The position numbers were made by a program, and so were the translations under genes. DNA of 64,000 nt from Gammaproteobacteria bacterium (GTDB lineage Bacteria > Pseudomonadota > Gammaproteobacteria > Steroidobacterales > Steroidobacteraceae), in assembly GCA_003164785.1 (NCBI GenBank), contig PLUE01000064.1:1-64000 (forward strand), written 5' to 3'. The notes beneath the pieces are model-generated. The model saw nothing but the letters and a program-made list of their open reading frames with translations. It made no database searches and was not told the origin of the DNA. Shown one piece after another: positions 15,331-36,879 of this stretch; position 1 is the first letter of the stretch, and every line of letters starts with the position of its first letter.

Positions 15331-15406
<76 letters not shown>

Positions 15407-15539
15407 TTACACCTTAGATCGACTACGACCCAGCGCGCTCGGCTGCGCCTGAGTACGTGTAACCCTTTGATTTTATTCGGTACGATTTCCAAAGTCGTCT
15501 ACCGGCGCCGTCGTGCGCGAATTTCAAGCGAAGCGGAAC

Positions 15540-15633
15540 TGGGGGCAACTCTCGCGCGAGTTGCCCCCAAAAGTCACCCGAAAAAGCCCAGTTGCCCCCA
15601 GCGCTTTTCAAACTGAAAAAGGAGTTGCCCCCA
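15540..15633. repeat. Phased AGTTGCCCCCA iterons before the integrase
   Basis: AGTTGCCCCCA occurs directly at 15559-15569, 15590-15600 and 15623-15633, spaced 31 and 33 bp (about three helical turns). An inverted copy at 15540-15550 forms a perfect 12-bp-arm hairpin with the first. The last copy fills the gap between the ribosome binding site AAAAAGGAG and the integrase ATG. These are probably arm-type sites for integrase or an excisionase, or operator sites for self-control. Confidence 0.7.
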
Positions 15634-16926
15634 ATGCTGTCCAACTTATTGATTCAACGAGCAAAAGCGCAATCGAAAACGACGCGACTTTCCGATGGTC
15701 GCGGTATGTACCTCGAAATTTCCCCCAAAGGTGGCAAATGGTGGCGATTCAAGTATCGGCTCAACGGTAAGGAGAAGCGGATGTCACTGGGCGTGTACCC
15801 GGACGTCGGATTGGCTGATGCACGAGACAAGCGCGAGGCGGCCCGAAAACTGGTCGCCGCCGGCGTTGACCCCACCGAGCACCGCAAGGCCGTCAAGGTC
15901 GCTTTGGTCGAGAGCACGGAGGACACATTCGAAGCAATCGCGCGCGAGTGGTTTGGGTCGTTTTCGAAGCACTGGGTTCCCGGTCACGCCGACAAAGTCA
16001 TCCGCCGGCTCGAACTCAACGTGTTCCCGTGCATTGGTGCGCGACCCATCAAGGCCATCACGGCGCCGGAGTTGCTGGCGGTGCTGCGGCGGGTCGAGGC
16101 CCGCGGCGCGAACGAGACAGCGCACCGCGCGCTGCAGGTCTGCGGCCGGGTATTCCGGTTCGCGGTGGCGACAGGGCGGGCCGAGCGTGATCCGTCCCGG
16201 GACCTGGGCGGTGCGCTGGCGCCGACCAAGGAAAAGCATCTCGCTTCGATCACGGATCCGGAGGAGGTGGGCGCTTTGTTACGAGCCATCGATGCGTACG
16301 ATGGATCTTGGATCACCCGCTGCGCTTTGCGGCTGGCGCCTCTGGTCTTCGTCAGACCGGGCGAACTGCGCGCGGCGCAGTGGGCCGAGTTCGACTTCGA
16401 GAAAGCGGAGTGGCGGATTCCGGCGACCCGGATGAAGATGCGCGTGCAACACGTTGTGCCCTTGTCGACACAGGCCATTGCGGTCTTGCAGGACCTGCAG
16501 CAACTCACTGGCCGATTTGCGTTGGCGTTTCCGGGTGTACGCAGTCGATTTCGACCGATGAGCGAAAACACGGTTACTGCGGCACTGCGCCGGATGGGGT
16601 ACAGCGGCCAGGACATGACCGGTCACGGATTTCGAAGCATGGCGTCGACGTTGCTCAACGAGCAGGGATGGAATCGGGATGCTATCGAGCGTCAACTCGC
16701 ACACGGTGAACGTGACGCGGTACGGGCGGCGTACAACTATGCTCAGCATTTGCCGGAACGGCGGCGGATGATGCAGGCGTGGGCGGACTACCTGGATCAG
16801 CTGAAGTCGAATATTCCTGACCTTAAGCAGGTGCGTGCCGCGCCAACCGTGACAAGTTTTCCGGGAGTACGTGAGGCGTCGGCAGGCGCGCGCCGACCCA
16901 TCAATTTCCCGCGGAAGCATGCATAG
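15634..16926 (+). CDS. P4-type tyrosine integrase
   Basis: 430 residues from ATG 15634, which has AAAAAGGAG about 9 nt upstream; a TTG at 15592 is less likely. The N-terminal DUF4102-type arm-binding domain (LSDGRGMYLEISPKGGKWW) is followed by the core-binding domain and a catalytic domain with Arg in FVRPGELRAAQW, HGFR, the second His in AHGERDAVR and a Tyr in RAAYNYAQHLPERR. It should integrate and excise the island at tRNA-Phe. It is closely related to the integrase at 37033 and nearly identical in its C-terminal half to the remnant at 39641. Confidence 0.95.
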   Translation: MLSNLLIQRAKAQSKTTRLSDGRGMYLEISPKGGKWWRFKYRLNGKEKRMSLGVYPDVGLADARDKREAARKLVAAGVDPTEHRKAVKVALVESTEDTFEAIAREWFGSFSKHWVPGHADKVIRRLELNVFPCIGARPIKAITAPELLAVLRRVEARGANETAHRALQVCGRVFRFAVATGRAERDPSRDLGGALAPTKEKHLASITDPEEVGALLRAIDAYDGSWITRCALRLAPLVFVRPGELRAAQWAEFDFEKAEWRIPATRMKMRVQHVVPLSTQAIAVLQDLQQLTGRFALAFPGVRSRFRPMSENTVTAALRRMGYSGQDMTGHGFRSMASTLLNEQGWNRDAIERQLAHGERDAVRAAYNYAQHLPERRRMMQAWADYLDQLKSNIPDLKQVRAAPTVTSFPGVREASAGARRPINFPRKHA

Positions 16927-17254
16927 TTGAATGGCTGATGGCGGCTTCGCGGTGATTTCCAAATGCGCCGCGATACCGTTCGTGATGGCGTTGCTCGCCC
17001 ATCTAGATGGCGGAGAATGTAATCCACCTAGAGCGTCGTGGGCCGCCGCTACCGGCGTCGAGTGAGTGCTCTCGACCGGGGCCGTGTGAAAACCCGATGG
17101 TGGGCGACGCCGACGAGTCCGCGGCAAGCCGCGGCGGCGGTGCAAGCGCCATGGAGAATGGTTGATGAAGAAACTGCGAGAGAACTTCGGTCAAAAGATG
17201 CTTCAGTCACTGCTCGCCGACCCTGCAAGGCCGATGACCGTCTAAGGTGTACGG
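16927..17254. other. Intergenic, no gene seen
   Basis: About 330 bp between convergent genes. It holds GC-rich self-complementary stretches (for example CCGCGGCAAGCCGCGG near 17120) but no coherent coding sequence. Confidence 0.5.
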
Positions 17255-17947
17255 CTAGAAGCCTCGTTCCGCGCAATAGCGATCTAGCCGCTCCCGAGCC
17301 GCTCGCAACACATAGTGGTAGTCGTCCTGCCCAATGATTCCCGAGGCCCAGCTATTTGCGTCGAACAGCATGCTGTACAGGTTAACGATGGCCAGGCCCA
17401 CCTTCAGCAGTTCTCCAACCTCTTCTCGCATGTGCGGGTACTTTTCCGCGACCGCGTGATCGGCCACCACATCCTTGGCATTTCTGTGCGAGTAGTAGTT
17501 ATGGCGAATCGCAATCAATCGGTCGACGACCGGGTTCGTGGTGCGGGTGACGTACGCCATGTCAACCTTCATTTGCCGTGAATCCAAGGGAGCAAAGGCC
17601 CCGATAAGACTCTCCGCACGTGCGCGCCCCGTCATGCGAGCGGCAAACTCCTCCTTTGAAAACAGATGCGGATTCGACTGGATCGTGTGCATGAATCCTC
17701 GCAGGCCGAGGTTCTTGTCATCCTGATCGTAGATGCGACACAGGCGAAACACCGCGGAATCGAGGTGAGCCTGAATCGTGAGGCTCCAGAAGGTCCACGC
17801 CTGGCGCATCGCCTCGCCGCTATCTGACTCATAGGCGGCGATCAAATTGGAGTGCATACTGAAGGCGATGTTAGCGTCGACCAGCTCCAGGGCAATTGTT
17901 TGGAGTAGCCGCTGGAATTCGGCTGAATCTCGCACCTGGATAGCCAT
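17255..17947 (-). CDS. AbiU2-like HEPN-domain protein
   Basis: 230 residues, all helical. The segment AWTFWSLTIQAHLDSAVFRLCRIYD and, later, LIAIRHNYYSHRNAKD fit the AbiU2-type HEPN fold. The second segment holds an Arg-x5-His motif, close to the RNase-active Rx4-6H signature of HEPN nucleases. AbiU is a phage abortive-infection system, so a defence RNase role is plausible. No antitoxin-like partner is adjacent. Family placement is from pattern recognition. Confidence 0.55.
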   Translation of the reverse strand: MAIQVRDSAEFQRLLQTIALELVDANIAFSMHSNLIAAYESDSGEAMRQAWTFWSLTIQAHLDSAVFRLCRIYDQDDKNLGLRGFMHTIQSNPHLFSKEEFAARMTGRARAESLIGAFAPLDSRQMKVDMAYVTRTTNPVVDRLIAIRHNYYSHRNAKDVVADHAVAEKYPHMREEVGELLKVGLAIVNLYSMLFDANSWASGIIGQDDYHYVLRAARERLDRYCAERGF

Positions 17948-18038
17948 GAGCCAGTCCGCCCTTAACCCGTGCAGAGCGCGAATGACATTGATAATTGAGA
18001 ATCACATCGTCGGTGCATGTACATCAGGCCAAATCACC

Positions 18039-18899
18039 CTAGGTTGCTCTACGCCGCGAAGGAGTCCTTGGAGACACAGCGATATTGATGTGACGATAAG
18101 TGACATCGCGCTCGGTAATGTCGTCTGGCACGACAATGTTGTCGGAGGACACCAGTACGGCATATCGAACGCGGGTCAATTCCGCGCCGGCGAGCGCCCC
18201 TGATGCGTAAGATATTGCCTGAGTACGTGCCGAGACAAAAAGGCGCTCTGCATTGGCGCTATTGGCGAGCTTCTTCCATTCGGTCAGTACCAAGCCTTCC
18301 GCAGATCGTGTAGCGGTTTGAAGGTCGTGCATTGGCTCTTGGAAAACAAGGTCAGTGCGCGCTCCTTTCGAATCAACCTTGAAAGCCCATATGCCGTGGG
18401 ATAGGAGATGGACGGCGCCCAGTTTTTCGCACGCTACCTCGCCAACCTCCCAAGCCTTTCGCCATCGATCCCCCAATTGCTCGTCGACGACGATGGAGCG
18501 TTGCAGGTGCTCAAAGGCTCTCTCAGTTCGGCTTTGGATACTCGCCTGGTGATCCGACAGCAGGTAGGTGACTTCCGCCTCGAGCGACGCCAAGACGACC
18601 AGAGCGGATCGGATGTAGACCTGTCTCATGTCCTGGGTCGTCGCTGAGACCTCGGAAACTAGCGGCCGTGCCTTTGACTCTGCCGCCTCGATCCGCGTAC
18701 ACACTTCATGGCTTGAGGGGCCAAGCCGGGCGCGAAAGATTGCCAGATCTGCGAGAATTGCGGCGGCCGTCTTCCCCAAATCGACCATTGCCCCCAAGCT
18801 GTCGTTATTCTTTTCGAATAAAGAACCTGCCAGTTCCGTTGCCTTCACCAACCCGTGAATCCGTGCGGAAAGCCGTGCCCACTCATTGAAAATCACCAT
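18039..18899 (-). CDS. Hypothetical protein, island cargo
   Basis: 286 residues from ATG 18899 (an in-frame ATG at 18944 would add 15). The N-terminal two-thirds is helical and coiled-coil-like (SRTERAFEHLQRSIVVDEQL); the last third is mixed, with an ISYASGALAGAELTRVRYAVLV segment that looks like a beta-alpha core. I do not recognise the family. The predicted soluble protein lies 91 bp upstream of, and on the same strand as, the HEPN-like gene, so the two may form a unit. Confidence 0.6.
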   Translation of the reverse strand: MVIFNEWARLSARIHGLVKATELAGSLFEKNNDSLGAMVDLGKTAAAILADLAIFRARLGPSSHEVCTRIEAAESKARPLVSEVSATTQDMRQVYIRSALVVLASLEAEVTYLLSDHQASIQSRTERAFEHLQRSIVVDEQLGDRWRKAWEVGEVACEKLGAVHLLSHGIWAFKVDSKGARTDLVFQEPMHDLQTATRSAEGLVLTEWKKLANSANAERLFVSARTQAISYASGALAGAELTRVRYAVLVSSDNIVVPDDITERDVTYRHINIAVSPRTPSRRRAT

Positions 18900-19347
18900 C
18901 GGAGACCCCTCTCGCGCTCTCTTTGCGAGGAACGTGAACTGCACAGTTTACCCTGATGAGATCTGTGCAGACAGTTTCGCAAGCTCGCAGAACAGCCTGG
19001 CGCCGTTGGACAGCGGGTGGTATCGATGGAACCGCTGCAAAGCACTCTGGGGCTTGCCATGGCCTGCGCCATCACGGCCCATAGGGGCCGCTCTCAAGGC
19101 GCGCGCAACGACTTTGAACTTCCGACCCGCCGCGGCTTGCCGTCCAAGGCGTCGTTCTGTCTCACCAAATGCGCACCATCGATTTGAAGGCACGTAAGGG
19201 CAAGAAGCTTTGCAGCGTGCCGCGCGCGACGCTGCAAGCGACGCGCTCACGCCTAAAGACCCTCCTCGGACTGTAGCGCGCCCCGGGACTCCCAAACTCG
19301 AAAATCCATCTCGCGCTCGGCAGCGTAGTAAAATGCGGTCCGAACCT
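18900..19347. other. Intergenic between divergent genes
   Basis: About 450 bp separating a minus-strand and a plus-strand gene. Open frames here overlap in several registers without conserved motifs. It should contain two divergent promoters; none is clear enough to place. Confidence 0.45.
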
Positions 19348-20415
19348 ATGTATCCAAAAAAATTCATATTCGATCCGGCGCATATAGCGAGAGCCCGCCT
19401 CGTCACATTGAGATCGCCAAATCTGAATGTCCTGCTCGATAACGGTGTGGTAATGCCTGGTATCGCTCATTTTCTGGAAGATGGATTCAAAGCACGCGAC
19501 AAACAGGGCAAGCTTCTGCATCCTGATTTGAGCGCGCTTCTCAACTCGAGCATTGGCATTTTCAGCGATTACGGCGGCGAAGATCCATCGAGCCGATATT
19601 TCACCTATTCGTTCCTAGTCTGCGCCTACGGTTCGCTGGAACCATTCAAGCAGCAGATGGCTGCGCTTCGAGAATCGTCCGGCCTCGGCCAAAAGGAAAT
19701 CGCTTTCAAGGACCTTCGCCATGGCCCATCGCGGCGCATGTTGCCTGCGTATTTGAAGTTGACTGACCAATACATCTCCGGTCTGCTCTTCACCTTGGCC
19801 GTCGACAAATCGATCCCATCACTCTTCGGCCCGGGGGATTCCGAAACGCAGAGCAAGATGTCGGACGCGCTGGAGAAGGGCGGTTATGGCGCCGTCAACT
19901 CCAAGGTAGGGGAAAAACTTTTTAGGGTTGTCCATTGCATCGCCTTCTTGATCGCGCTTCTGGGGCATTCGGGTCAGAAGATATTCTGGATGACGGATCA
20001 CGATGCTATCGGAGAAACACCGGAGCGACACACCAAGCTGCTTGGTATCCTCGACCAAGTGATCCCGCTTTACACCAAGAAATCATTCGCGTTCCTTGGG
20101 GGCGCTCGGCCGTTTACGCCTCGATCGTTTGAGCTTCTTGACCTGCTTAGCGTGAGTGACATCGCCGCCGGTGCGATCGCGCAGGTCTTGAGCAGCATCG
20201 ACACGCTCGGCCAGGAAAATGCCCAGATAAAACCCGGCGGGGATCACGTCCTGCGTTGGCTATGCCACAACAGTATTGCGTTGAAGAAGTTCGCCATGAC
20301 GGTGAAACGTCTTCCAGACGGAACTGTCGGCTGTGGGCCAATCGACTTTGAAGCGCGTGCTCCAATTAAGGATGAGCTTTTCATCCCAACGCAGTTAGTT
20401 CGCCGATCACAGTGA
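19348..20415 (+). CDS. Putative DUF3800-like RNase-H-fold protein
   Basis: 355 residues from ATG 19348; an ATG at 19333 and a longer open frame from 19210 exist. Features recalling DUF3800/RNase-H-like enzymes are an early acidic turn (IFSDYGGEDPSSRYFTYS), a following EIAFKDLRHGP segment, a central WMTDHDAIGE stretch and a late SVSDIAAGAIAQ helix. These could supply the acidic catalytic residues. This is a distant, unaided resemblance. It is followed by a small gene after a hairpin. Confidence 0.45.
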   Translation: MYPKKFIFDPAHIARARLVTLRSPNLNVLLDNGVVMPGIAHFLEDGFKARDKQGKLLHPDLSALLNSSIGIFSDYGGEDPSSRYFTYSFLVCAYGSLEPFKQQMAALRESSGLGQKEIAFKDLRHGPSRRMLPAYLKLTDQYISGLLFTLAVDKSIPSLFGPGDSETQSKMSDALEKGGYGAVNSKVGEKLFRVVHCIAFLIALLGHSGQKIFWMTDHDAIGETPERHTKLLGILDQVIPLYTKKSFAFLGGARPFTPRSFELLDLLSVSDIAAGAIAQVLSSIDTLGQENAQIKPGGDHVLRWLCHNSIALKKFAMTVKRLPDGTVGCGPIDFEARAPIKDELFIPTQLVRRSQ

Positions 20416-20421
20416 AAGGCT

Positions 20422-20443
20422 GTCGCGGCTGTTTGGCCGCGAC
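20422..20443 (+). promoter_or_regulatory. Perfect 8-bp-stem hairpin between two cargo genes
   Basis: GTCGCGGC (20422-20429), a six-base loop and GCCGCGAC (20436-20443) form a strong stem. Only a short T stretch follows, so it may be an attenuator or processing site more than a full terminator. It lies in the gap before the next start codon and argues against translation from the GTG at 20412. Confidence 0.5.
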
Positions 20444-20471
20444 GTTTAATGGCAACGGAGGCGGGGCATTC

Positions 20472-20942
20472 ATGGAACGAACCGAACTCGAGCAGCTGCT
20501 CACGTGTCCGCTCAACTGGTCGGCCGTCTGTGACGAGATCGAACTCGTCCGCTGGCTTCAATTCGCGTGGTACGCGACTGCATGCAAGTACCAAGTGGAT
20601 GGGGAGATCCAGCGTCTCATTTCCTATGATGACTTTGCCCCGTCCACGTCGGAACTCGACTTCCTTGAGGAGCATTTGGAACTTCGGACCGAACTCATCA
20701 ACGTGCGCGAGCGGCACACCGACGCAAAAGAGGAATGCCTAAAGAACTACCAGAACCTTCATCGGCAACGGGCGCTGCGCCGAGATGAATATCCCAAGCA
20801 CTATCCGAATCCAAGTTGGACCTTGGAAAAAGTCTGTGCCGAATCGGTAAAGCGCGGCGACGCCGTTCTGCTTCCCATCCTCGATGAGACCCTGCAAGGC
20901 AAGCTCCTCTGGGCGGCACTCGATGAGATCGTCTACCGCTAG
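20472..20942 (+). CDS. Hypothetical helical partner protein
   Basis: 156 residues from ATG 20472, chosen for its GGAGG site 10 nt upstream; a GTG at 20412 overlaps the preceding stop but lies before the hairpin. The product is acidic and helical with a likely coiled coil in EEHLELRTELINVRERHTDAKEE. The family is not recognised. Close spacing suggests it works with the RNase-H-like gene upstream. The same frame stays open beyond its TAG stop for 91 more codons. Confidence 0.5.
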   Translation: MERTELEQLLTCPLNWSAVCDEIELVRWLQFAWYATACKYQVDGEIQRLISYDDFAPSTSELDFLEEHLELRTELINVRERHTDAKEECLKNYQNLHRQRALRRDEYPKHYPNPSWTLEKVCAESVKRGDAVLLPILDETLQGKLLWAALDEIVYR

Positions 20943-21327: not shown

Positions 21328-22782
21328 TCATTGTTGATCGCACGGGACGTCCCAAACCACATGCATCGACAGAGCGTCATTGCCGCCGTTGATCGAACCG
21401 CTACACTCGGCATGGCTCCCGTCTTTGTTCTCCTGGAGAACATGTTCGTTACGTTGCCCCGAGCATTTGACGGAGGTGACTTTCGCGGGAGCGTTCCAGC
21501 GGATCGTCCATTTCTGGAGGCGTGTGCCTCCGCCGCCATCGCCCAAATCGATCCGCTGGCCGTCAGGCCGAGTTTGCATGACGCCCGGCTCGTCAGGCGA
21601 AAAAGTAACCGTTTTCTCCTCAGTGCATATCTTGGGGGGCGACCTCGACGCCACCTGATTGCGTTGAGAGGCGGGCGCCAGACGGACTGACACGCCGTGA
21701 TTGCCAATCTTGACGATTGAGTCGGCTTCGCCGGCACTGACGATTCCGACACATAGGCCGGCTTCGGTTGAAATCAGCCAAACGTGCGAACTCGACGTCG
21801 GCGTGGTCCAATTCATAGTGTTTGGAATGTCGGACCCCACACTTGGTATGACTTTCGCTGTTTCATCGATCCAACGGACTTTGGCGGTGTTGCCTGAGGC
21901 ATTGACAAATTCCAGATTGACGTCTTCCGACGACGCGCTCGGTTCGGACGCCACTCGGCTGAGTTCGCCGCAGGGAATCGATTTTGCGATACCAGTTCCC
22001 GCGAGTTCAGACGATTTTCCATGTCGCGCTGTTCCAGAAGTGATGCCCTCGCGAATATGCTTGATCGCTTCCGCCACGGCGCCAATCCCGATGATAGTCA
22101 CTGCAAGGACGACTAACCCGGCAATAATCCAATTGTTCTTCAGCGTTCTAATCCATCGGTCCGCCGTGGATTCGGTCTTCTCGCTCATGGGCGCCACCCT
22201 CTCCGAATAGGTCTGTGAGACGCCAATTTTGTGCACATCCCGCTGTGTCGCCTCGGCCTTACGTCGATCAGCCTCTTCCTTGAATGCGTTAGCAAGCATG
22301 TCCTCGGTCAGTACGCTGAACGTCTGGTCTTTCGACTGCAGGAAAGTCCCGATCGGCAGACTCTTCGTCGAGTAGGCAGAAAGCTCTGCATCGGTCAGCT
22401 TGGGAAAAAATGTATGGAGTTGGTCCAGCTCTTTGGAGACTTCCCGCGCCCGATCCAGGCCCTCCGCCGAATCCGCGCGGCCGTAGCCGCGAACGGCGTC
22501 AGCTCCCTCTTTCAGGGCGCCCTCTCCGGAACGAAGGTGCATCTGCGCATCCACTGCGTCGATCCCTTTGGCATTGATTCGGGCGGTGTATTCGATACGA
22601 AACGTATCGATGACGCCAAGGTCGCGCAGGTAGCGCCAGGCGGCTTCTGCCTCTGACGGCGATAGCTGACAAGCGTCAGCGAGCCGCGCGACGAAGATTG
22701 GCTCGTGCGAGTGTTCGGTCCGCTCACGCACAAGCGCGAGAAGCCGCATCGCCCGATCCTTGGAGGTCTCCCCGTGATTCAT
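21328..22782 (-). CDS. Membrane protein: winged-helix N-terminus and VHL-beta-like domain
   Basis: 484 residues. The N-terminus (about 8-70) resembles a winged helix (LADACQLSPSEAEAAWRYL followed by a short beta hairpin). A helical linker leads to one membrane helix (about 217-236, NNWIIAGLVVLAVTIIGIGA). Residues about 286-350 match the von Hippel-Lindau beta-domain pattern: LEFVNASGNTAKVRWID and then HVWLISTEAGLCVGIV. The last 110 residues have several Cys and may form a second beta domain. A membrane-tethered sensor is inferred. It is divergent from the IetAS-like pair. Confidence 0.6.
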   Translation of the reverse strand: MNHGETSKDRAMRLLALVRERTEHSHEPIFVARLADACQLSPSEAEAAWRYLRDLGVIDTFRIEYTARINAKGIDAVDAQMHLRSGEGALKEGADAVRGYGRADSAEGLDRAREVSKELDQLHTFFPKLTDAELSAYSTKSLPIGTFLQSKDQTFSVLTEDMLANAFKEEADRRKAEATQRDVHKIGVSQTYSERVAPMSEKTESTADRWIRTLKNNWIIAGLVVLAVTIIGIGAVAEAIKHIREGITSGTARHGKSSELAGTGIAKSIPCGELSRVASEPSASSEDVNLEFVNASGNTAKVRWIDETAKVIPSVGSDIPNTMNWTTPTSSSHVWLISTEAGLCVGIVSAGEADSIVKIGNHGVSVRLAPASQRNQVASRSPPKICTEEKTVTFSPDEPGVMQTRPDGQRIDLGDGGGGTRLQKWTIRWNAPAKVTSVKCSGQRNEHVLQENKDGSHAECSGSINGGNDALSMHVVWDVPCDQQ

Positions 22783-23367: not shown

Positions 23368-23473
23368 ATCTCCCCCTCTGATCGGCTCACGGCCGACACT
23401 GTCGCCCGATGATTTCAACGGACGTGGGTGTCGGTGAGCTCGGGGCCCCGTCATTGGGCGCCGTCGGCAAAGG

Positions 23474-23514
23474 ATTGTAGTGAATCGCTTCGGCGGGTGA
23501 ACTACACTACCAAT
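23474..23514. promoter_or_regulatory. Inverted repeat before the AAA ATPase gene
   Basis: ATTGTAGTG (23474-23482) and CACTACCAAT (23505-23514) are near-perfect inverted copies with one extra base, and the second ends directly at the ATG. The position would suit an operator that blocks expression of the downstream pair. Confidence 0.4.
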
Positions 23515-24501
23515 ATGGCGAAGTCTGATCAGCTAAAAGCGTTGTTGCGCAGTCACGCCGAAGGCGACGACGCGCGCTTTTATGCCGTAGCGATGCAGGT
23601 TGCAGCGCAAGCCGCTCGAAGTGGCCACGGTAAGCTCGCGCAGGAGTTGCGGGATCTGATCGACGAAGCGAAGGCGCGCAGACTGGCGACCGACATGCAG
23701 CCGGGGATCAGACCCGCGTTGCTTGCCCAGCCAAGGGGCGAACTTTCAGGACTGCTGACGGTGGTGTACCCAAAGACACGCATCGCCGACATGGCGTTGA
23801 CGGACGCTCTCCGTACTCGACTCAATCGAGTGCTGACCGAGCAGCGACAGCGTGAACGGATTCGAGAGCATGGGTTTTCTCCGATACGGAAGCTGCTTCT
23901 GGTCGGGCCACCAGGAACTGGTAAAACGATGACGGCTGCGGCGCTTGCGGGCGAGCTCGGGATTCCCTTGTTCAGTATTCAGTTGGATGCGCTCATCACT
24001 AAATTTATGGGCGAAACAGCCGCGAAATTGAGACTCATTTTTGATGCGATTCGGTCAACGCGTGGTGTCTACTTGTTCGACGAATTTGACGCCCTCGGCA
24101 GCGACCGCAGTACGCGCAACGATGTGGGCGAAATCCGTCGGGTTTTGAATTCCTTTCTGCAATTCCTCGAGCAGGATAGTTCGCAAAGCCTGGTGCTTGC
24201 GGCGACGAACCACGTGGGGCTGCTCGATCGTGCGCTGTTTCGACGCTTCGATGCGGTACTCGAATACACGTTGCCGACGAGTGCAGTTATTACGCGCGTC
24301 ATGAAGGCGCGACTGGCATTGCTCGACACCTCGGGCATCGATTGGCACAACGCCGCGAAGCTGGCAGAGGGCCTGAGTCATGCGGAGATTGCGGCCGCGT
24401 GTGAGCAAGCGGCAAAAAATGCGATTCTTGAGCAATCGACTTCGGTACGCGACTCCGAGCTGGCGTTGGCCATCGAGGAACGACGCGCTACTCACGCATA
24501 A
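23515..24501 (+). CDS. ietA: IetA-like AAA ATPase
   Basis: 328 residues from ATG 23515; the upstream extension to 23428 is not protein-like. AAA+ core: Walker A GPPGTGKT (131-138), Walker B VYLFDEFD (185-192), sensor-1 Asn in ATNH (about 232) and arginine-finger-like RR in LFRRFD (243-244). The N-terminal 80 residues are helical. The next gene, 20 bp on, is a subtilisin-like protease. An AAA ATPase plus S8 protease pair is the IetAS arrangement, known from Agrobacterium plasmid stability and as an anti-phage system. The symbol rests on architecture and gene order. Confidence 0.75.
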   Translation: MAKSDQLKALLRSHAEGDDARFYAVAMQVAAQAARSGHGKLAQELRDLIDEAKARRLATDMQPGIRPALLAQPRGELSGLLTVVYPKTRIADMALTDALRTRLNRVLTEQRQRERIREHGFSPIRKLLLVGPPGTGKTMTAAALAGELGIPLFSIQLDALITKFMGETAAKLRLIFDAIRSTRGVYLFDEFDALGSDRSTRNDVGEIRRVLNSFLQFLEQDSSQSLVLAATNHVGLLDRALFRRFDAVLEYTLPTSAVITRVMKARLALLDTSGIDWHNAAKLAEGLSHAEIAAACEQAAKNAILEQSTSVRDSELALAIEERRATHA

Positions 24502-27195: not shown

Positions 27196-28182
27196 ATGTG
27201 GTTACTCGTATTGCTCGCTCTCGGCGTAGTCCTTATTTGGGCATTTCGGGATGCCGTTTCAGGCAATGGTGCCGGTACCGATCGGTGGTCGCTGCGCCCG
27301 CGCCCGCTCCTGACTGAGCGTGAGCAGCAGTTGTATGAGCGATTGGTAGCGATATTTCCGCATCATGTCGTTCTCGCGCAAGTCGCTTTGTCGCAGCTCG
27401 TCGAATTCACTCCGAACGCGGCCAATCGACAGTCCATCCAAAATCAGTTCTTTCGGCTGGTGGCCGACTTTGTACTCTGCAAGCGCGATTTCACCGTGGT
27501 CGCCGTGATTGAACTCGACGATCCCACACACGAGAGGGCGGATCGGCAAAGCGCCGATGCGCGAAAGACCAAGGCGCTGACGTCCGCGGGCCTGCGACTC
27601 GTCCGGATCCCCGCCGGCCCCGTGCCGTCGCATGAGGAACTGCAACGGCTTATTCGAGATAACGACATTCTATCCGACGGTTCGTTTATGCGAAGCAATC
27701 CTCCGGCGCGCGGCTTGGATCCGGAATCGGCTGCCGTGCGGCGATCGATAGTGACCCTCGTTGTCGTCGCCGTCGTCATCGCCGGTGGCTGGATGATGTA
27801 CTCCCAGTGGCTGACCCGATCGGTCCCACGCGTCCTCGGCGCGCAACCTCTCGCCTTGATGTCCCGCCTGGCACCGGCAACCCCGGCTCCCGTGCGGCCT
27901 GGACCGGCGCCGGCGCCGCCCACGCCGGGTGCTATTCGTCCGACGGCCGCGGAACAAGCAGACGCGAAGCGCGTGGCGGCACAAGCCGTGTTGGCTGCTC
28001 AGCAGGCAGCGGACGCGCTGGCGAAGCGCAAGGAGCGCGCATGGGCGGCATCCTATGTCGCACCGGCCTCCTGTGAACATCCGCCCACGTGGAAGGATCA
28101 GGTCGACTGCGGCAATCAGTACATGCGCGCCAAGAAGGAATTCGAACAGCGGTGGCAGGCGCAGCAGACCGCGGCGCAGTAA
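27196..28182 (+). CDS. DUF2726 membrane-anchored nuclease-like protein
   Basis: 328 residues. An N-terminal membrane helix (1-17), then a DUF2726 domain (about 38-150) with LLTEREQQLYERL, VADFVLCKRDFTVVAVIELDD and LTSAGLRLVRIPA. DUF2726 resembles PD-(D/E)XK nucleases; the acidic positions are present. A second membrane helix (about 184-203), a Pro-rich linker and an Ala-rich helix follow. It starts 148 bp after the IetS-like gene on the same strand and could be a third member of that unit. ATG 27191 lies in another frame. Confidence 0.75.
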   Translation: MWLLVLLALGVVLIWAFRDAVSGNGAGTDRWSLRPRPLLTEREQQLYERLVAIFPHHVVLAQVALSQLVEFTPNAANRQSIQNQFFRLVADFVLCKRDFTVVAVIELDDPTHERADRQSADARKTKALTSAGLRLVRIPAGPVPSHEELQRLIRDNDILSDGSFMRSNPPARGLDPESAAVRRSIVTLVVVAVVIAGGWMMYSQWLTRSVPRVLGAQPLALMSRLAPATPAPVRPGPAPAPPTPGAIRPTAAEQADAKRVAAQAVLAAQQAADALAKRKERAWAASYVAPASCEHPPTWKDQVDCGNQYMRAKKEFEQRWQAQQTAAQ

Positions 28183-28754: not shown

Positions 28755-28937
28755 TCATTTTAGGCGGCCGTTTATTTTCTCAAGGTCAGCGACGGTGAGT
28801 CCTTTGCTAACTGACTCAACCGCTTTCGATGCTAATTGCGAAAGTTTGTCGCAATACTCCTTGGGTGGCGGCAGTATCGACAGCACATCGGCCGCGCCGT
28901 CCGCGAACTGCTTACCGAGGGCGTCATTCTCTGACTG
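28755..28937 (-). pseudogene. Orphan C-terminal fragment fused to truncated IS3
   Basis: Directly after the point where the IS3 transposase loses homology, the frame one base over reads as protein (GKQFADGAADVLSILPPPKE and then LTVADLEKINGRLK) to a TGA at 28755-28757. It is not transposase. It appears to be the last 60 residues or so of an unrelated gene joined to the element by a deletion. Confidence 0.5.
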
Positions 28938-29521
28938 CCGCGATCCGAGTGCAGCAGCAGCCCCGGAGCCGGACGCCGACGCCAGTACGCCATCTGCAGT
29001 GCATCGCAGACCAGCTTCGCCGTCATTCGCTCACTCAGTGCCCAGCCCACGATCCGGCGGGTCCCTAAATCTACGATGGCGGCCAAATAGAGCCAACCTT
29101 CATCCGTCAGCAAGTAGGTGATGTCACCGGTCCAGGCCTGGTTCGGTGACCAGGCCGTGAAGCGCCGAGCCAACAGGTTCATCGCCACTGGTTTGCGATG
29201 ATTGGAGTCCGTGGTGACCCGATAGGGCCGACGGTATACGGTGCGCAAACGCTGGCGTAGAAGGCGTTGGCGCACACTCTCGGCGCCGATCCGCATGCCT
29301 GACTGACGCAGCCGACGAGTGACACGGATGCGCCCGTAGCCCTGCTTGCCTTCGGCATGGATGACGGCCACTTGCGCATCGAGAGATTGGTTGGCGAGTT
29401 CACGATCGCTTGGTCCCCGATCACGCCATTGCAGGAAGCCACTGCGCGAGACGCCCAGCACCTTGCATAACCGCGCGATCGGCTGCCAGCCAGCCTGTGC
29501 TTCGATCCAGGCGTACTTCAC
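28832..29521 (-). pseudogene. IS3 orfB transposase, C-terminally truncated
   Basis: Starts at GTG 29521 overlapping the orfA stop by 4 bp. The HTH_21 region (QGYGRIRVTRRLRQ) and the rve integrase core are present, with the first catalytic Asp in WTGDITYLLTDEGW and the second in LLLHSDRGSQ. After GSQ the reading frame turns into unrelated residues, so the catalytic Glu of the DDE triad is lost. Inactive. Confidence 0.82.
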
Positions 29522-29875
29522 GATGACTCCCTTGCAAAGTACGCCGCCGCTTTTCTTAATATGGCGTTATCCGTTTTAGCCGACGCCAACTCGCGACGTA
29601 ATCGATCTACCTCCGCCTCGAGCTCCTTCGCCGACCGCGGCGTCGCCGACACGCTTCTCGTTGTGCCGAGCTTCCCGGCGCGTTCCAGTTTGATCCAGTT
29701 AAATAAACTCGATTCCGGCATGCCTAGCCGTCGGCTAGCTTCCGTACAACCCACGCTCTCGGCGAGCCGTACCGCTTCAATTTTGAATTCGCTCGTGTAC
29801 CGACGGCTCGGTACCCCGACCTTCTTGTGACCCATATTCGTCTCCAGACATCATCAGATTATAGTCTCCTGATGT
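28938..29875 (-). mobile_element. Truncated IS3-family element
   Basis: Two overlapping frames typical of IS3, orfA and orfB, on the minus strand. The 3' part of orfB, including the last catalytic Glu, and the distal inverted repeat are missing; homology stops near 28938. The proximal end lies close to 29875 but no matching terminal repeats can be paired. It cannot transpose by itself. Confidence 0.75.
29518..29835 (-). CDS. IS3 orfA (HTH_Tnp_1)
   Basis: 105 residues with an N-terminal helix-turn-helix (RRYTSEFKIEAVRLAESVGC, MPESSLFNWIKLERAG) and a leucine-zipper-like coiled coil (KELEAEVDRLRRELASAKTD). It binds the IS ends in intact elements. The gene is complete although its partner is not. 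Confidence 0.85.
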   Translation of the reverse strand: MGHKKVGVPSRRYTSEFKIEAVRLAESVGCTEASRRLGMPESSLFNWIKLERAGKLGTTRSVSATPRSAKELEAEVDRLRRELASAKTDNAILRKAAAYFARESS

Positions 29876-30320: not shown

Positions 30321-31457
30321 TTGAGAAAGTCCGGCAAAAAGAAAAGCGTGTCTATCTCTTCCACCGGCAGTTACGCAGGATTGGTGGGCGGCATCAGCGA
30401 ACTGCTGGAAATGGCACGCCGTTCCAGTGCGCGTGCGGTAAACGCCTTCATGACGGCAACGTATTGGGAGATTGGTCGGCGCATCGTAGAATTTGAGCAA
30501 GGTGGTAAGAAACGGGCTGAGTACGGAAAAGCATTACTCGAACGCCTCTCCAATGATTTGACGGAAAGGTATGGACGTGGGTTTGCCCGTCCCAATCTAA
30601 TTAGGTTCCGGCAATTTTACAGCGCATTTCCTGTTACCGCGATTCGTTCGACACTGTCGAACGAATCCCTCGATGCCTCTTATATAAATCGTTCGACAGC
30701 GTTGAACGAATTGGAGTTGCATAACCTTGCCCGGGCGTTTCCATTGCCCTGGTCTAGTTACGTCCTGTTGATAAGCCGGGCTCGCTCGCCGGAAGCATTC
30801 ATCTTTTACCACGGCGAGGCGCTTCGTGGTGGATGGTCCGTCCGGCAGCTGCAAAGGCAGATAGATACTCAGTTTTATGAGCGTGCTGCACTATCGCGCA
30901 ACAAGGCCGCCATGCTTATCAAGGGATCCAAGCCCGCACCGGGGGATATAACCAGCGCGGATGAGGAAATACGCCATCCGCTCGTACTGGAATTTCTTAA
31001 TCTACGCGATGAATATTCGGAGAGCGATCTCGAGGATTCACTCATTCGGCACCTTGAAACCTTTTTACTCGAGCTCGGTAACGATTTTGCGTTCGTTGGT
31101 CGTCAGCGACGGCTTCGGATAGACGATGAATGGTACCGAGTGGATCTATTGTTTTTTCACCGTCGCCTGCGCTGCCTGGTGATATTCGACTTGAAGCTGG
31201 GTCGGTTTACGCATGCAGATGCCGGTCAGATGCATATGTATTTAAACTATGCGAGAGAGCACTGGGCCCAAGCCGGTGAGAATCCACCAGTCGGCGTCGT
31301 TCTTTGCAGCGGAAAAAACGAAGCGCTGGTGCATTACGCCACGGCTGCATTGCCTACGAAGCTGCTCGTCCGGGAATATCTTACTGCATTGCCAGATGAA
31401 AGCGTTCTGGCGGCGGAGTTGGAAAATACGCGTAAGCAAATAGAGGCACGCAAATGA
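30321..31457 (+). CDS. DUF1016/YhcG PDDEXK nuclease
   Basis: 378 residues from a TTG start. The N-terminal DUF1016_N domain shows YWEIGRRIVEFEQGGKKRAEYG and LSNDLTERYGRGF; the C-terminal PD-(D/E)XK domain shows YRVDLLFFHRRLRCLVIFDLKLG with the Asp...Asp-x-Lys catalytic set. Family members occur in defence islands and near restriction systems. Base composition looks more AT-rich than its neighbours, a sign of separate origin. The start is uncertain by a few codons. Confidence 0.88.
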   Translation: MRKSGKKKSVSISSTGSYAGLVGGISELLEMARRSSARAVNAFMTATYWEIGRRIVEFEQGGKKRAEYGKALLERLSNDLTERYGRGFARPNLIRFRQFYSAFPVTAIRSTLSNESLDASYINRSTALNELELHNLARAFPLPWSSYVLLISRARSPEAFIFYHGEALRGGWSVRQLQRQIDTQFYERAALSRNKAAMLIKGSKPAPGDITSADEEIRHPLVLEFLNLRDEYSESDLEDSLIRHLETFLLELGNDFAFVGRQRRLRIDDEWYRVDLLFFHRRLRCLVIFDLKLGRFTHADAGQMHMYLNYAREHWAQAGENPPVGVVLCSGKNEALVHYATAALPTKLLVREYLTALPDESVLAAELENTRKQIEARK

Positions 31458-31604
31458 CAAATAAAAATTCCATCGGACCGAAGCGCTCATATCATTCAGT
31501 CAGAATGGCCAAGAGAGAATCGATATCGTCCATGTCGTTGTGAACCGATGGAGAAATACGAAGCACGTATTAGCTCCAACGGATGCGTTACGAAGGATCA
31601 AATC

Positions 31605-31922
31605 ATGAGCAAGCCCCAAAGCACCTATCCGCTTCGCCTGCCAACTTCGGTGAAAGCCGAAGTGATACGGCGCGCCAAGGCCGAGGGCACGAGCTTCAAC
31701 CAGTTCGTTGCAACCGCAGTGGCAGAGAAACTGGCCGCGATGAAGTCCGCCGAATTTGTCCTCGAACGACGCGACCGCGCGAATTACGCTGCCTTCGACA
31801 AAATCATGAAGCGCAAGGGTGGAGAGAAACCTAGGCCAGAAGATATATATTGCCATGAATGCACGCCACTGGTGTGCAAGCAGCTGCGCGCCGTACCCGC
31901 ATCGCCGGTTCGCTGCTCATGA
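31605..31922 (+). CDS. Ribbon-helix-helix antitoxin-like protein
   Basis: 105 residues from ATG 31605, which has GAAGGA 9 nt upstream. The first 80 match small HicB/CopG-annotated antitoxins: the strand STYPLRLPTSVKAEVIRRAK, then GTSFNQFVATAVAEKLAAM. After KPRPED the sequence loses this character and runs through the head of the Fic remnant, so the original C-terminus was probably lost in a deletion. No intact toxin partner is adjacent. Confidence 0.65.
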   Translation: MSKPQSTYPLRLPTSVKAEVIRRAKAEGTSFNQFVATAVAEKLAAMKSAEFVLERRDRANYAAFDKIMKRKGGEKPRPEDIYCHECTPLVCKQLRAVPASPVRCS

Positions 31923-32559: not shown

Positions 32560-32678
32560 TGACAATGAAAAAGATCGACATCGCGGCCGTCGAAGCGGCG
32601 CGGCACGGCTCGCGCTTAGACCTAGACCAGTGGAAACTCGGGGGCGTTAAATGGCGCGCCGCTACACGGTTCCAAGGC

Positions 32679-34376
32679 TCAACCGCGCTTCGGGCTGGTC
32701 TTTTTAGCATCCACGTCGATTTCGGTGCGCTTCAGCAGATAATCGAGCCCTCCGACCCGGTACCACCGATATCCATAGGCTTCGACTAGGGGGTGATGCT
32801 GGCCATGCTTGTCCGGTTGACTATGATCTTCCGACAGCAGATTCGCGAGAGTCTGATCCGGTGTGTCGAGTCCCACCGAGAATTGCACTTCGCGCGGGGT
32901 CGACGCGAGATTGTGCAAGAAGAGTACGGAGTTATTGCGCCAGTCGTAGCGAATGACGAGCACCGCAGGGTCGCGCGTGGCGATGAACTCGAAGTCACCC
33001 CAGCCCACTTCGGGAATTTCCTTGCGCATCCGGATGATGCGTTCCATCCAGTTGAGCATGGAGTTGGCGTCGCGGCGCTGCTGTGCGACGTTGACGTGCG
33101 GGTAGCCGAAAGGCCCATCGCTGATAACGGGCAGAACCGGTTTCCTGCTCTTGGTGAAGCCCGCCTGCGGTTCCGTCGACCATTGCATGGGCGTACGGGC
33201 GCAGTTGCGCTCGGGCAGCGACAGATCATCGCCCATCGCGATTTCATCGCCATAACGCAGCACTGGCGTGCCAGGCAGCGTGAACATCAAGCTGTAGGCG
33301 AGTTCGATGCGGCGTCGGTCGCCCTGAAGCATGGGCGCCAAGCGGCGCCGGATGCCGCGGTCATACAGCTGCATGGATTTATCGGGACCGAAAGCCGCGA
33401 ATACTGCCGCCCGTTGCGGCTTGGTCAGGCGTCCCAGATCCAACTCGTCGTGATTGCGCAGAAACATGCCCCATTGCGCGGTCTTGGGGCGGGATTTCGT
33501 TGCCTGCAGCGCCTTCTGTAAAGGCCGCGAGTCGGCGGCCGCCAGCGCAAAGAACAGATTTTGATTGGCGGCGAAGTTGAACATCATGTGCATGCGATCG
33601 CCGGCTCGGCCGAAATACTCCATGTCCGTATTCGGCAGGACGTTAGCCTCGGCGAGAATGATGGCGTCGCCTTCGCGCCACTGCAGAAATTCCCTGAAGG
33701 TGCGCAGCATGTCGTATTGCTCGACGGGTTTGGCGACTGTCGCACCCTTGGTGGCGATGACGAAGGGTACCGCATCCATGCGAAAGCCCGACACGCCCAA
33801 TTGAATCCAGAATCCCATGATTTTGAGAATCTCAGCTTGTACATGCGGGTTCGCCGTGTTGAGATCCGGCTGAAAGTCGTAGAAGCGGTGGAAGTACCAG
33901 GCGCGCGCACGCGCATCGAAACTCCAGGTCGACTTTTGCACCCCCGGAAACACCATGCCTTTGTTGGCGTCGCGAGGTTTCCTTTTGGACCAAACATACC
34001 AGTCGCGGTAGGGCGAGTGGGGATCCTTGCAGGCATCCTTGAACCAGGCGTGCTGGTCGGAGGTGTGATTGACCACCAAATCGATGATGACTCGAATGCC
34101 GCGCTGCTTGGCGGCGTGGGTGAATTCGACGAAGTCGCCCAGGGTACCAAAGCGCGCGTCCACATTGTAATAGTCGGCGATGTCGTAGCCGTCGTCGCGG
34201 CACGGCGAGGTCTGAAACGGCATGAGCCAAATGGCCGTGACGCCTAGACCCTGCAGATAATCGAGCCGACGCATAAGGCCGGCAAAATCGCCGACGCCAT
34301 CCCCATTGGCGTCCATGAAGGTCGCCACGGATAGGCAGTACACGACCGCATTCTTGAACCAGAGATCATTGATCAT
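32679..34376 (-). CDS. GH13 trehalose synthase-like enzyme (TreS family)
   Basis: 565 residues, cytoplasmic. GH13 barrel with the catalytic nucleophile Asp201 (SGFRMDAVPF), acid/base Glu243 (IILAEANV) and third Asp310 (FLRNHDELDL). Sequence around MDANGDGVGDFAGLMRRLDY and the ARTPMQWS block suits the maltose alpha-glucosyltransferase/alpha-glucosidase branch. It could interconvert maltose and trehalose or hydrolyse alpha-glucosides. The ATG overlaps the upstream GH13 gene by 4 bp. It has no maltokinase fusion. Confidence 0.8.
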   Translation of the reverse strand: MINDLWFKNAVVYCLSVATFMDANGDGVGDFAGLMRRLDYLQGLGVTAIWLMPFQTSPCRDDGYDIADYYNVDARFGTLGDFVEFTHAAKQRGIRVIIDLVVNHTSDQHAWFKDACKDPHSPYRDWYVWSKRKPRDANKGMVFPGVQKSTWSFDARARAWYFHRFYDFQPDLNTANPHVQAEILKIMGFWIQLGVSGFRMDAVPFVIATKGATVAKPVEQYDMLRTFREFLQWREGDAIILAEANVLPNTDMEYFGRAGDRMHMMFNFAANQNLFFALAAADSRPLQKALQATKSRPKTAQWGMFLRNHDELDLGRLTKPQRAAVFAAFGPDKSMQLYDRGIRRRLAPMLQGDRRRIELAYSLMFTLPGTPVLRYGDEIAMGDDLSLPERNCARTPMQWSTEPQAGFTKSRKPVLPVISDGPFGYPHVNVAQQRRDANSMLNWMERIIRMRKEIPEVGWGDFEFIATRDPAVLVIRYDWRNNSVLFLHNLASTPREVQFSVGLDTPDQTLANLLSEDHSQPDKHGQHHPLVEAYGYRWYRVGGLDYLLKRTEIDVDAKKTSPKRG

Positions 34377-36082
34377 GGGCTGTCCGGCGTCGGGGGGACG
34401 AGCGCAATAATCACAGCTTCATCCGGCCGCAGAAAGAGCTTGCTTTCCGTGAGGTGCGTTCCGCCATCCAAGTAGGTCGATAGCAGCAGAGACTGCGCGC
34501 GGCCCACTGATTGCAATGCAAACTCGGCCGGCTGCGCGCCGAGGTTGGCGACGATGAACAATTGCTCAGCCAGCGTGTAGCGCACATATGCAAGCAGCGC
34601 TCCGGTCGCGACGACGGGCTGATAACTGCCCATCGAGAGCGCCGCATGCTGTCGGCGCAGCTCGAGCAAGCGTCGGTAAAGCGACAACATCGAGCGCGGA
34701 TCACGGTCTTCGATCGCGACGTTGTTCTCGTTGGCGTCTGCCGCGATAGGCAACCAGGGATCATGATCGCCGAAGCCCGCGTGGGGCGACGCATCCCATT
34801 GCATGGGCGTACGGCTCGGGTCTCGTCCCAAGCATTTACCCGGCACGTTCTTCTCCAACGGGTCCTGTATCTGGTCTGCTGGGATGGGCACATTGTGCAT
34901 GCCGATCTCATCGCCGTAATACAGGGTCGGCGTACCGCGCAAGGTCAGCAATATCATGCCCGCTACCCGGGCTTGGGCTGCGCCCACTCGCGAGGCGATG
35001 CGCGGGTTGTCATGGTTGCCAAGCACCCAGTTCGGCCAGCCGCCGACCGGCAGCGCCGCCTCATAGCGATCGATCAAGCCGGCGATGCTGCGCGCATCCC
35101 AAGGCGTTTGCAGCAGCTGAAAATTGAAAGGTAACTGCACTCCGCGCAAATCCTTGCCGTAGTAGGCGACCAGGCGCTCGAGCGGCAGGTAAATTTCACC
35201 AACCAGCACGCGATCGTCGAATTCGTCGACCACCGCGCGCAGGCGCGCAACGATGTCCTGATTCTCCGGACGGTCAGTAGTGTAGAGCGGATGCTGCGAA
35301 TGAAACAGCGGCATTCCCGGCTTGTAGTCGGGATTTGGCGGATTGTCCCGCCACTGATCGTCCTTGATGAGCAACCAGAGCACGTCGATGCGAAAGCCCG
35401 CCACGCCCCTGCGCAGCCAAAAGCGCAGCACCTCGTGCATGGCCGCCACCACCTCGGGGTTGCGCCAATTGAGGTCGGGCTGCTCCTTTAGGAACGAATG
35501 GTAGTAATACTGCTGGGTAGCCTCGTCCCATTCCCACGCGCTGCCGCCGAAGTTGCTCAGCCAATTATTAGGAGGTCCGCCATCGGGTGCCGCGTCATGC
35601 CAAAGATACCAATCGCGTTTCGAGTTGCCTCGGCTCGAGCGCGAGGCCGCAAACCAGGGGTGCTGGTTGGAGGTGTGGTTGGGCACGTAGTCGAGAAGTA
35701 TCTTCAGGCCGCGTCGCGTTGTTTGCGTGAGCAGGTCATCGAAATCCTCGAGCGTGCCGAAAATCGCCGCAATGCCCGAGTAGTCGGCCACGTCGTAACC
35801 GAAGTCTGCCATGGGTGAAGGGAAAATGGGCGATAGCCACAGCGCGTCGATACCCAAAGCGGCGCAGTAATCGAGCGTCTCGGCGATGCCTCGCAGATCG
35901 CCGATGCCGTCGGCGTTCGCATCGCGGAAGGAACGCGGATAGATTTGATAAATGACGCCGCTTTGCCACCAGTGAGCGGTTGCTGAGACGATGGGCGTAA
36001 ACACGGCTGTGGGATGGTTATTCAAAAGGAAATACCGCTTGTCTCGCTTTAAGTAAAGTGCGGCGTCCGTCCGTTGGCTCAC
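34373..36082 (-). CDS. GH13 alpha-glucosidase (oligo-1,6-glucosidase type)
   Basis: 569 residues from a GTG; a later start is possible since the domain begins at WWQSGVIYQIYPRSF (about 38). Catalytic Asp233 (GFRIDVLWLLIKD), Glu296 (VLVGEIYLP) and Asp358 (VLGNHDNPR). The long insert with DWYLWHDAAPDGGPPNNW is typical of exo-acting alpha-glucosidases. With the overlapping TreS-like gene it forms a two-gene alpha-glucoside unit carried on the island, next to its right end. Confidence 0.85.
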   Translation of the reverse strand: MSQRTDAALYLKRDKRYFLLNNHPTAVFTPIVSATAHWWQSGVIYQIYPRSFRDANADGIGDLRGIAETLDYCAALGIDALWLSPIFPSPMADFGYDVADYSGIAAIFGTLEDFDDLLTQTTRRGLKILLDYVPNHTSNQHPWFAASRSSRGNSKRDWYLWHDAAPDGGPPNNWLSNFGGSAWEWDEATQQYYYHSFLKEQPDLNWRNPEVVAAMHEVLRFWLRRGVAGFRIDVLWLLIKDDQWRDNPPNPDYKPGMPLFHSQHPLYTTDRPENQDIVARLRAVVDEFDDRVLVGEIYLPLERLVAYYGKDLRGVQLPFNFQLLQTPWDARSIAGLIDRYEAALPVGGWPNWVLGNHDNPRIASRVGAAQARVAGMILLTLRGTPTLYYGDEIGMHNVPIPADQIQDPLEKNVPGKCLGRDPSRTPMQWDASPHAGFGDHDPWLPIAADANENNVAIEDRDPRSMLSLYRRLLELRRQHAALSMGSYQPVVATGALLAYVRYTLAEQLFIVANLGAQPAEFALQSVGRAQSLLLSTYLDGGTHLTESKLFLRPDEAVIIALVPPTPDSP

Positions 36083-36863
36083 ACCGGTGGCTAAGCCACT
36101 GTTTCAGTTTTCAGCCAGCGTGACAATAGGACCTGCGCTCTACTTGCCTCGGTAGGCTGGCCGATGGCCGATGGCCGATGGCTGACGCGTGCGCAGCGTT
36201 GGCGCTAAATCGCCGAGGTCGGCCGGCTGGAACAGGTATGCACCATGCAGCCCGGTGCGGGCCTCAATGAACGCGTTCTCGTCAATCTGTACAACTGGGC
36301 GTTCGTTCCTTTCGCCAGGTCGAACCGCTGGCTGGAAGGCCAGCATCTGACCGGCTTGGCCGCCTTTTTCGCCGGCATCGTACAGCGAATCAGGCCTGAC
36401 CTCGGCGCCGCCGGCTGGGCAGGCTCAGCTTATGCTGAAGAATTGTCGACCCGGGCGCGCGACTATGCGGCGAGTGCTGCCGTGGAGCTGGGTCGTTGCC
36501 TATTCAAGGGTCCCGAACTTGAGAACCGTCGCGCCGACGCGCTGGCGCCGGCCGGCCTTCCTCGAGTTCCTCGGCGATGGCGCACCCGTTCGCTCATCGC
36601 GACTGATCGCCCCAGATGCGTACTGCCTGATCGGACGTGCGCCAGCCAGTTTGAAGTACTTCCAACCGTTTCGCGCACTTGCATAGCATTGCAATCGCGG
36701 TATGATTCAAGCGTAGGATACGCAAACGTAGCCGGTCGTATGCAGGCGGGAATGCCCTATAATTTTTTGGCTTTCATGAAGCGGTATCAGTTTGGGGATA
36801 ACTAAAATTCTCAAAAAAATAAAAACCGAATCGAAAGAAAATCGTAATCAATCTATCGCGTTG
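36083..36863. other. Right end of island 1, no clear gene
   Basis: About 780 bp. A 186-codon frame (36245-36805, +) begins with protein-like LVNLYNWAFVPFARSNRW but loses coherence, and other frames hold short protein-like pieces, so decayed coding DNA is possible. The last 100 bp before the attachment site are AT-rich. Confidence 0.4.
36159..36179 (+). repeat. Three tandem GGCCGAT units
   Basis: Three perfect 7-bp copies followed by a partial one, upstream of the GH13 pair. A short repeat of this kind can change copy number by slippage. Confidence 0.7.
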
Positions 36864-36879
36864 CCTCCCTGGCCACCAT
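36864..36879 (+). other. attR of island 1 / attL of second element
   Basis: Exact 16-bp copy of the tRNA-Phe 3' end (15392-15407), without the rest of the tRNA. Another integrase gene begins 154 bp further on in the same orientation, so this copy probably also serves as the left end of a second, tandem element. Confidence 0.85.

Follow-up and report, generated by a model that had tools for sequence, protein, structure and literature searches.

A 21.5-kb genomic island lies at the 3′ end of a tRNA-Phe gene in the window analysed here, the first 64,000 nucleotides of contig PLUE01000064.1 of a bacterium of the Steroidobacteraceae (assembly GCA_003164785.1). The island is real and ordinary in kind, and the lead to follow within it is a gene for an RNase H-fold protein at 19333-20415. 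We give a probability of roughly 85% to an account in which a tyrosine integrase would have recombined attP with the 3′ end of tRNA-Phe, so that an element of 21,472 base pairs (bp) was inserted, the tRNA gene was left whole and a 16-bp copy came to lie at the far end. The insertion would have occurred at a tRNA-Phe gene already bearing an integrase-AlpA element, which by this tandem accretion would have been pushed 21.5 kb away. The island would carry unrelated defence-type genes, namely those for an AbiU2-type HEPN protein, an IetAS-like ATPase-protease pair and a YhcG-type nuclease, as well as the RNase H-fold protein, a predicted effector that would cut nucleic acid.

15331..15406, + strand: tRNA-Phe (GAA), the integration target (ARAGORN; Rfam RF00005, 75 bits)
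15392..15407, + strand: left attachment repeat, the 16-mer CCTCCCTGGCCACCAT (exact match)
15592..16926, + strand: tyrosine integrase 1 (Pfam Arm-DNA-bind_3, Phage_int_M, Phage_integrase)
19333..20415, + strand: gene of an RNase H-fold, DUF3800-like family (AlphaFold, Foldseek, hhalign, residue conservation)
36864..36879, + strand: right attachment repeat (16-mer), doubling as the start of an older element (exact match; homology breaks here)

Boundaries of the island

The tRNA-Phe gene ends at 15406, and the 16-mer thus consists of its last 15 bases and one T. A first-pass annotation of the window had claimed exact 16-bp repeats at the tRNA-Phe 3′ end and 21.5 kb downstream, and the whole 5.85-Mb genome indeed holds the 16-mer exactly twice, with no occurrence of a reversed-pattern control. 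Shuffles of the window gave a chance expectation of 0.04 when up to two mismatches were allowed, which together with the whole-genome count rules out a repeat by chance. The same annotation placed an integrase just inside the repeat; this is the open reading frame (ORF) at 15592-16926, which stands beside tRNA-Phe and carries R, H-x-x-R, H and Y at the positions of what we take to be the catalytic motif pattern. The G+C content of the island interior is 0.54-0.64 per kb, compared to 0.60-0.68 upstream (3-15 kb).

Both ends of the island were compared with tRNA-Phe junctions in other species of the genus, using a set of one genome per species in which congeners stand in for an empty strain of the same species. 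In congener G021, an integrase with 85% identity to integrase 1 comes after tRNA-Phe. The 184 bp after the 16-mer align between the two genomes at a score of 234, which none of 500 shuffles reached (maximum 27), and in both the distance from the 16-mer to the aligned integrase Met is 227 bp. The tRNA-Phe of congener G003 precedes an integrase that shares 71% identity with integrase 2, the integrase of the older element. The 138 bp after 36879 align with the DNA after the G003 tRNA-Phe at a score of 35 (shuffle maximum 27; 0 of 500), with the aligned Met 154 bp past the 16-mer for integrase 2 and 165 bp past it in G003. Between the 138 bp before 36864 and the G003 DNA before its 16-mer there was no alignment (score 16; 147 of 500 shuffles), while the 138 bp before the tRNA copy of the 16-mer in the window matched the G003 upstream DNA at a score of 186 (0 of 500). 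Three cross-pairs of junction DNA scored 17-18, with 84-108 of 500 shuffles equally high. The congener comparison is therefore positive, and judged by these alignments we regard the boundary at 36879 as genuine. The G003 and G021 matches indicate that the 21.5-kb element was inserted between tRNA-Phe and the older integrase/AlpA element, and the simplest history would be that the older element settled on tRNA-Phe first and the 21.5-kb element then came in between.

The right-hand repeat could have another origin, as the older element's own left site, brought next to the cargo by deletion or rearrangement and not made by integrase 1. Its place at the start of that element, at nearly the distance from the integrase Met seen in G003, would fit such an origin. 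A shared site is, however, exactly what tandem integration predicts, the repeat is where homology breaks off, and integrase 1 sits beside tRNA-Phe; we consider the rearrangement very improbable. With insertion by integrase 1 preferred, a clear boundary delimits a cargo that is testable as a unit.

Older elements downstream of the island

The first-pass annotation described a single self-contained island, a view that the sequence does not bear out: the 21.5-kb island forms the layer nearest the tRNA in a tandem stack. Beyond its right repeat lie the following features.

37018..38220, + strand: integrase 2 of the older element, 63% identical to integrase 1
38332..38775, + strand: zeta-toxin-like ORF (PF06414, expectation value (E) 8e-7, profile positions 76-175 of 199; the N-terminal part of the domain is unmatched)
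39279..39512, - strand: excisionase/regulator of the older element, presumably to be named AlpA-like, 67% identical to an ORF downstream of the G003 integrase
39671..40222, + strand: decayed third integrase, 84% DNA identity to integrase 1

Further copies of the tRNA-Phe 3′ half are present in the same genome, one of 51 bp and 96% identity on the same contig 89 kb downstream (G000:C73:104320-104370) and another at C38:7509-7561 (94%). Because integrase 2, the decayed integrase and these tRNA copies all lie outside it, 15392-36879 is one layer and not the whole accessory region. Of 23 genus genomes, the own one included in each count, 6 have matches to the DNA at 43-50 kb and 2 to that at 94-100 kb (E 1e-20; partly short stretches); for comparison, the yggX stretch beside tRNA-Phe was matched in at least 12 of 22 congeners. 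Given these few matches, accessory DNA probably reaches far past 36879. Passages of PMC8978831 present tandem accretion as an established route to composite islands, with CGI48 of Shewanella as a case. At the distant end, the 51-bp tRNA copy is followed by genes for a PLD-helicase-DUF3427 protein and an Mrr-type restriction enzyme (L035, G000:C73:104320-110064), and defence-like content thus continues 89 kb downstream.

This raises the alternative of a larger mobile unit of about 89 kb, bounded by the 51-bp tRNA copy, within which the 16-mer unit would be nested and would never have moved alone. The length, identity and shared contig of that copy are in its favour, as is the scarcity of the 43-50 kb and 94-100 kb DNA in the genus, which marks the interval as largely accessory. 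On the other hand, in G021 integrase 1 with its leader adjoins a tRNA directly, and an integrase, a leader and a 16-mer also belong to the second unit itself, as expected of separate units. We therefore think it rather unlikely that the 16-mer unit never moved by itself, and note that the 89-kb and 21.5-kb readings can be compatible as nested layers. Under the preferred account of separately inserted layers, the tRNA-Phe site in this genus is one that repeatedly gathers mobile DNA.

Among 21 tRNA-Phe loci of relatives, no gene other than integrases was common, except in the pair L057/L060 (35% identity). An integrase of the integrase 1/integrase 2 type follows tRNA-Phe in 4 of the 21 (L043, L044, L049, L063), L047 holds pieces of one, and a second integrase type is present in L039, L062 and L066 and is matched more weakly in L046 and L059. 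A conserved downstream neighbour that could mark an empty site was sought and found in none of the 21 loci, several of which extend only a few hundred bases past the tRNA.

Three loci have arrangements of their own. L040 (G017:C124, 1296-11218), on a 13.7-kb contig, contains three copies of the tRNA-Phe 3′ half and a 23-bp piece, spaced 2.4-3.8 kb apart as if small elements had piled up, with a zeta-like gene beside one tRNA copy. L038 (G011:C109, 228-9287) contains 51-bp and 15-bp copies of the tRNA-Phe 3′ end 9 kb apart, which enclose a PIN gene; over residues 1-129 its product shares 95% identity with that of 40452-40949 in the window. In L045 (G020:C222, 4657-4725), the match to the tRNA-Phe next to yggX stops at base 69 and ARAGORN does not report the gene, while elsewhere in that genome a whole tRNA-Phe adjoins an integrase; the partial gene may have been broken by insertion or may reflect an assembly fault.

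The RNase H-fold gene

The gene at 19333-20415 has no family match in Pfam, PADLOC, NCBIfam or PHROGs, and its assignment comes from structure and profile comparison. The AlphaFold model has a mean predicted local distance difference test (pLDDT) score of 91.3 and a predicted template modelling score (pTM) of 0.91, and its best Foldseek match in the PDB is RNase HII (1eke, E 1.4e-4). In the Foldseek viral library the top match was an uncharacterised phage protein (E 3.6e-8), followed by a DUF3800 protein of a phage (E 1.2e-6). A sequence search of solved structures gave a lone match at E 0.44, which was taken as chance. Using a DUF3800 profile built from 18 of the 28 DUF3800 loci fetched, hhalign aligned the two families with a probability of 92.9% (E 3.8e-7), placing D79 on the first-strand Asp and D276 on the Asp of LxQxxD. 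Both Asp residues of the DUF3800 motifs are thus kept, and other residues take the place of the DE-pair Glu and the LxQxxD Gln. Direct membership in DUF3800 was rejected, as PF12686 matches none of 31 members (E 0.5; seven families listed overall). Since there is no PF12686 match and two motif residues differ, we liken the family to DUF3800 and do not file it there. Passages of PMC10910872 describe a DUF3800 protein beside Cas12 with a predicted RNase H fold and a catalytic rearrangement, which agrees with the fold proposed here. Published text on DUF3800 in connection with defense, RNase H or phage contained no description of the 19333-20415 family, though an unnamed family escapes a text search. 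A true DUF3800 gene is present in the same genome (L118, G000:C47:13190-15437), adjoining a paralogous integrase gene interrupted by a single in-frame stop.

A profile scan found 43 related loci in other genomes, up to 76% identical, in hosts that by title are Alpha-, Beta-, Gamma- and Deltaproteobacteria, Acidobacteriota, Bacillota, a spirochaete and one member of the Bacteroidota, the group names being in part presumed. Relatives were absent from the 245 other genomes searched in its order; 8 of 72,556 plasmid records hold one, and viral contigs yielded seven loci. The alignment comprised 31 sequences, the window protein and 30 of the 43 loci, with 13 near-duplicate, short or broken ones left out. 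Among the invariant residues are D79, G82, E83, E122, K126, W219, D222, D224, D270, S273 and D276.

Neighbouring genes were scanned as 176 of 205 ORFs from 31 loci, 29 being dropped, mostly shorter ones and any above 1,500 amino acids. At 22 loci, 106 neighbours matched 173 PADLOC models (E 1e-10) and at 10 loci, one in common with the 22, 70 neighbours matched 50, compared to 8 for a control of 99 ORFs of at least 150 amino acids; these counts are of models, not proteins or loci, and the models are redundant, such that a few strong proteins may give many. The control ORFs were drawn from the own genome and from its order (seven stretches), genomes other than those of the homologues. Among the models listed were Hachiman, CBASS, Shedu, Gabija, AbiE and Dsr1 for the 22 loci and reverse-transcriptase systems for the 10, system names that we presume in part from protein names. 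Integrases (E 1e-5) made up only 3 of the 106 neighbours. The ORF at 20412-20942 was considered as an obligate partner and rejected, as it was not found at the 43 homologue loci (E 1e-4).

From its fold, invariant acidic residues and neighbourhood, the protein probably cuts nucleic acid and may plausibly serve as a stand-alone defence or abortive-infection effector, which would make 19333-20415 the best candidate for a new defence gene in the island. The unnamed genes might instead be maintenance or decaying passenger genes, to which we assign somewhat less than even odds. This would suit 18039-18944 and 21328-22782, which are nearly without relatives, and a region that also holds an IS3 remnant and small ORFs of DNA-binding or toxin-like type. 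Against it stand the spread of 19333-20415 relatives over several phyla, the acidic residues kept in all 31 sequences and the many defence models beside its homologues relative to the control. The suggestion of the first-pass annotation that the unnamed genes are new systems therefore stands reasonably well for 19333-20415 and weakly for 18039-18944, and falls for the AbiU2, IetAS and YhcG genes, which already have names. A further step, that 19333-20415 represents an undescribed stand-alone defence family, is tentative and on balance doubtful: one nuclease of RNase H fold, its active site a rearranged form of the DUF3800 type, would occur in several phyla on islands and plasmids and, on infection, degrade invader or host nucleic acid with no fixed partner. 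As a candidate defence gene, it belongs to a small, single-gene family that can be interpreted structurally and often lies near known defence systems, and which, having no Pfam match and no assigned role in the searches made, offers a concrete, testable lead.

Other cargo and comparison with known systems

The description of a tRNA-Phe island with defence-rich cargo agrees with the families found, which are named by homology, and the run of at least five defence-type or unknown genes is present: past the integrase and before the IetA-like gene come, in order, AbiU2, a first orphan, the gene at 19333-20415, a short ORF and another orphan.

17255..17947, - strand: AbiU2-type HEPN protein (PF18734, E 1e-18, 68 bits, cut-off 26.8, residues 10-211)
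18039..18944, - strand: orphan upstream of the AbiU2 gene, with a C-terminal LTEWK...Q motif
20412..20942, + strand: small ORF whose start may be 20474; no Pfam, PADLOC or NCBIfam match
21328..22782, - strand: orphan gene with a winged-helix-like N-terminal part and one transmembrane stretch (by eye)
23428..24501, + strand: IetA-like AAA ATPase (PADLOC IetA, E 2.2e-70; NCBIfam IteA, 200.2 bits, cut-off 510)
24522..27047, + strand: IetS-like subtilase (PF00082, E 4.8e-59; PADLOC IetS, E 2.6e-41; NCBIfam IteS, 77.7 bits, cut-off 900)
27196..28182, + strand: DUF2726 protein with a hydrophobic stretch by eye (PF10881, E 2.7e-23)
28832..29835, - strand: transposase remnant in two ORFs, which we take to be of the IS3 family (PF00665, rve, only to position 77 of 102; PF01527)
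30321..31457, + strand: YhcG/DUF1016 PDDEXK nuclease (PADLOC candidate PDC-S02, E 2.9e-128)
31548..31922, + strand: ribbon-helix-helix-like small protein (NCBIfam YlcI/YnfO, 33.5 bits, cut-off 30; Pfam HicB below its cut-off; PHROGs E 6.6e-7 and weaker)
32679..36082, - strand: two adjacent alpha-amylase-family enzymes, presumably GH13 (PF00128), which look metabolic rather than defensive

The orphan at 18039-18944 lies 91 bp upstream of the AbiU2 gene on the same strand and has no family match in Pfam, PADLOC, NCBIfam or PHROGs. Relatives were found in 1 of 348 other phylum genomes (349 searched) and in one partial plasmid match, with none in viruses. PD-(D/E)XK nucleases share a fold with a D...ExK active site, and LTEWK with its downstream Gln, invariant in the three aligned sequences, suggests by this motif a PD-(D/E)XK-like nuclease. 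The single-sequence model is poor, residues 150-301 (the C-terminal half) falling below pLDDT 50. Two relatives in a 1.4-Mb genome (L146 and L147, G742) lie between apparent housekeeping genes, which from their sequences we take to be transketolase and glyceraldehyde-3-phosphate dehydrogenase in one case and an acyltransferase and a ketoreductase in the other; a small membrane-protein-like ORF is alongside the second. Pfam, PADLOC and PHROGs gave no match to the orphan at 21328-22782, and its single NCBIfam match is far below cut-off. No plasmid or viral relative was found, and among the 349 genomes it occurs in its own only.

Several points weigh against the account of an integrase-made island with defence-type cargo and an RNase H-fold effector. 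The 16-mer is short, and the other tRNA 3′ copies in the genome are 51-53 bp; the G003 junction match, though clear, is modest at 35 versus a shuffle maximum of 27. An AlpA-like ORF was found in the second element only and not in the 21.5-kb unit by tblastn with two AlpA-like proteins. AlpA-type excisionases are common in tRNA-integrated islands and not universal, hence not defining. The defence functions of the cargo are those predicted by homology only, and IetA and IetS miss the NCBIfam equivalog cut-offs. For the RNase H-fold protein, the fold matches have moderate TM-scores (for 1eke, 0.36 by query and 0.55 by target), the neighbours of its homologues are commonly ordinary genes, and there is no recurrent partner, the widest neighbour cluster reaching 4 of 37 loci and reading by eye as a dehydrogenase.

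No conjugation gene turned up among the scanned ORFs and the unit yielded no AlpA-like one, so that movement of the island would probably need helpers. In common with other tRNA-integrated islands, this one has a tRNA 3′-end target, short direct repeats, an integrase beside the tRNA and layers at one site; it differs in host, in cargo and in that the layer next to the tRNA yielded no AlpA-like ORF. The integrases of comparable islands are presumably tyrosine integrases of the P4/CP4 type.

Among the known systems in the cargo, the AbiU2-type protein shares the Pfam domain HEPN_AbiU2 and differs in its adjoining unnamed same-strand orphan and in that no PADLOC model matches it. Passages of PMC3710099 list AbiU2 among abortive-infection HEPN families and tabulate another HEPN family in an operon with it. 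The AAA ATPase followed by an S8 protease has IetA and IetS as its best PADLOC matches, and with scores far below the equivalog cut-offs we call the pair IetAS-like, a divergent relative of IetAS. The 19333-20415 protein shares with DUF3800 (PF12686) a predicted RNase H-like fold in which the first-strand and C-terminal Asp residues align, and differs from it in length, at 360 amino acids compared to 201-279 for the 18 DUF3800 proteins.

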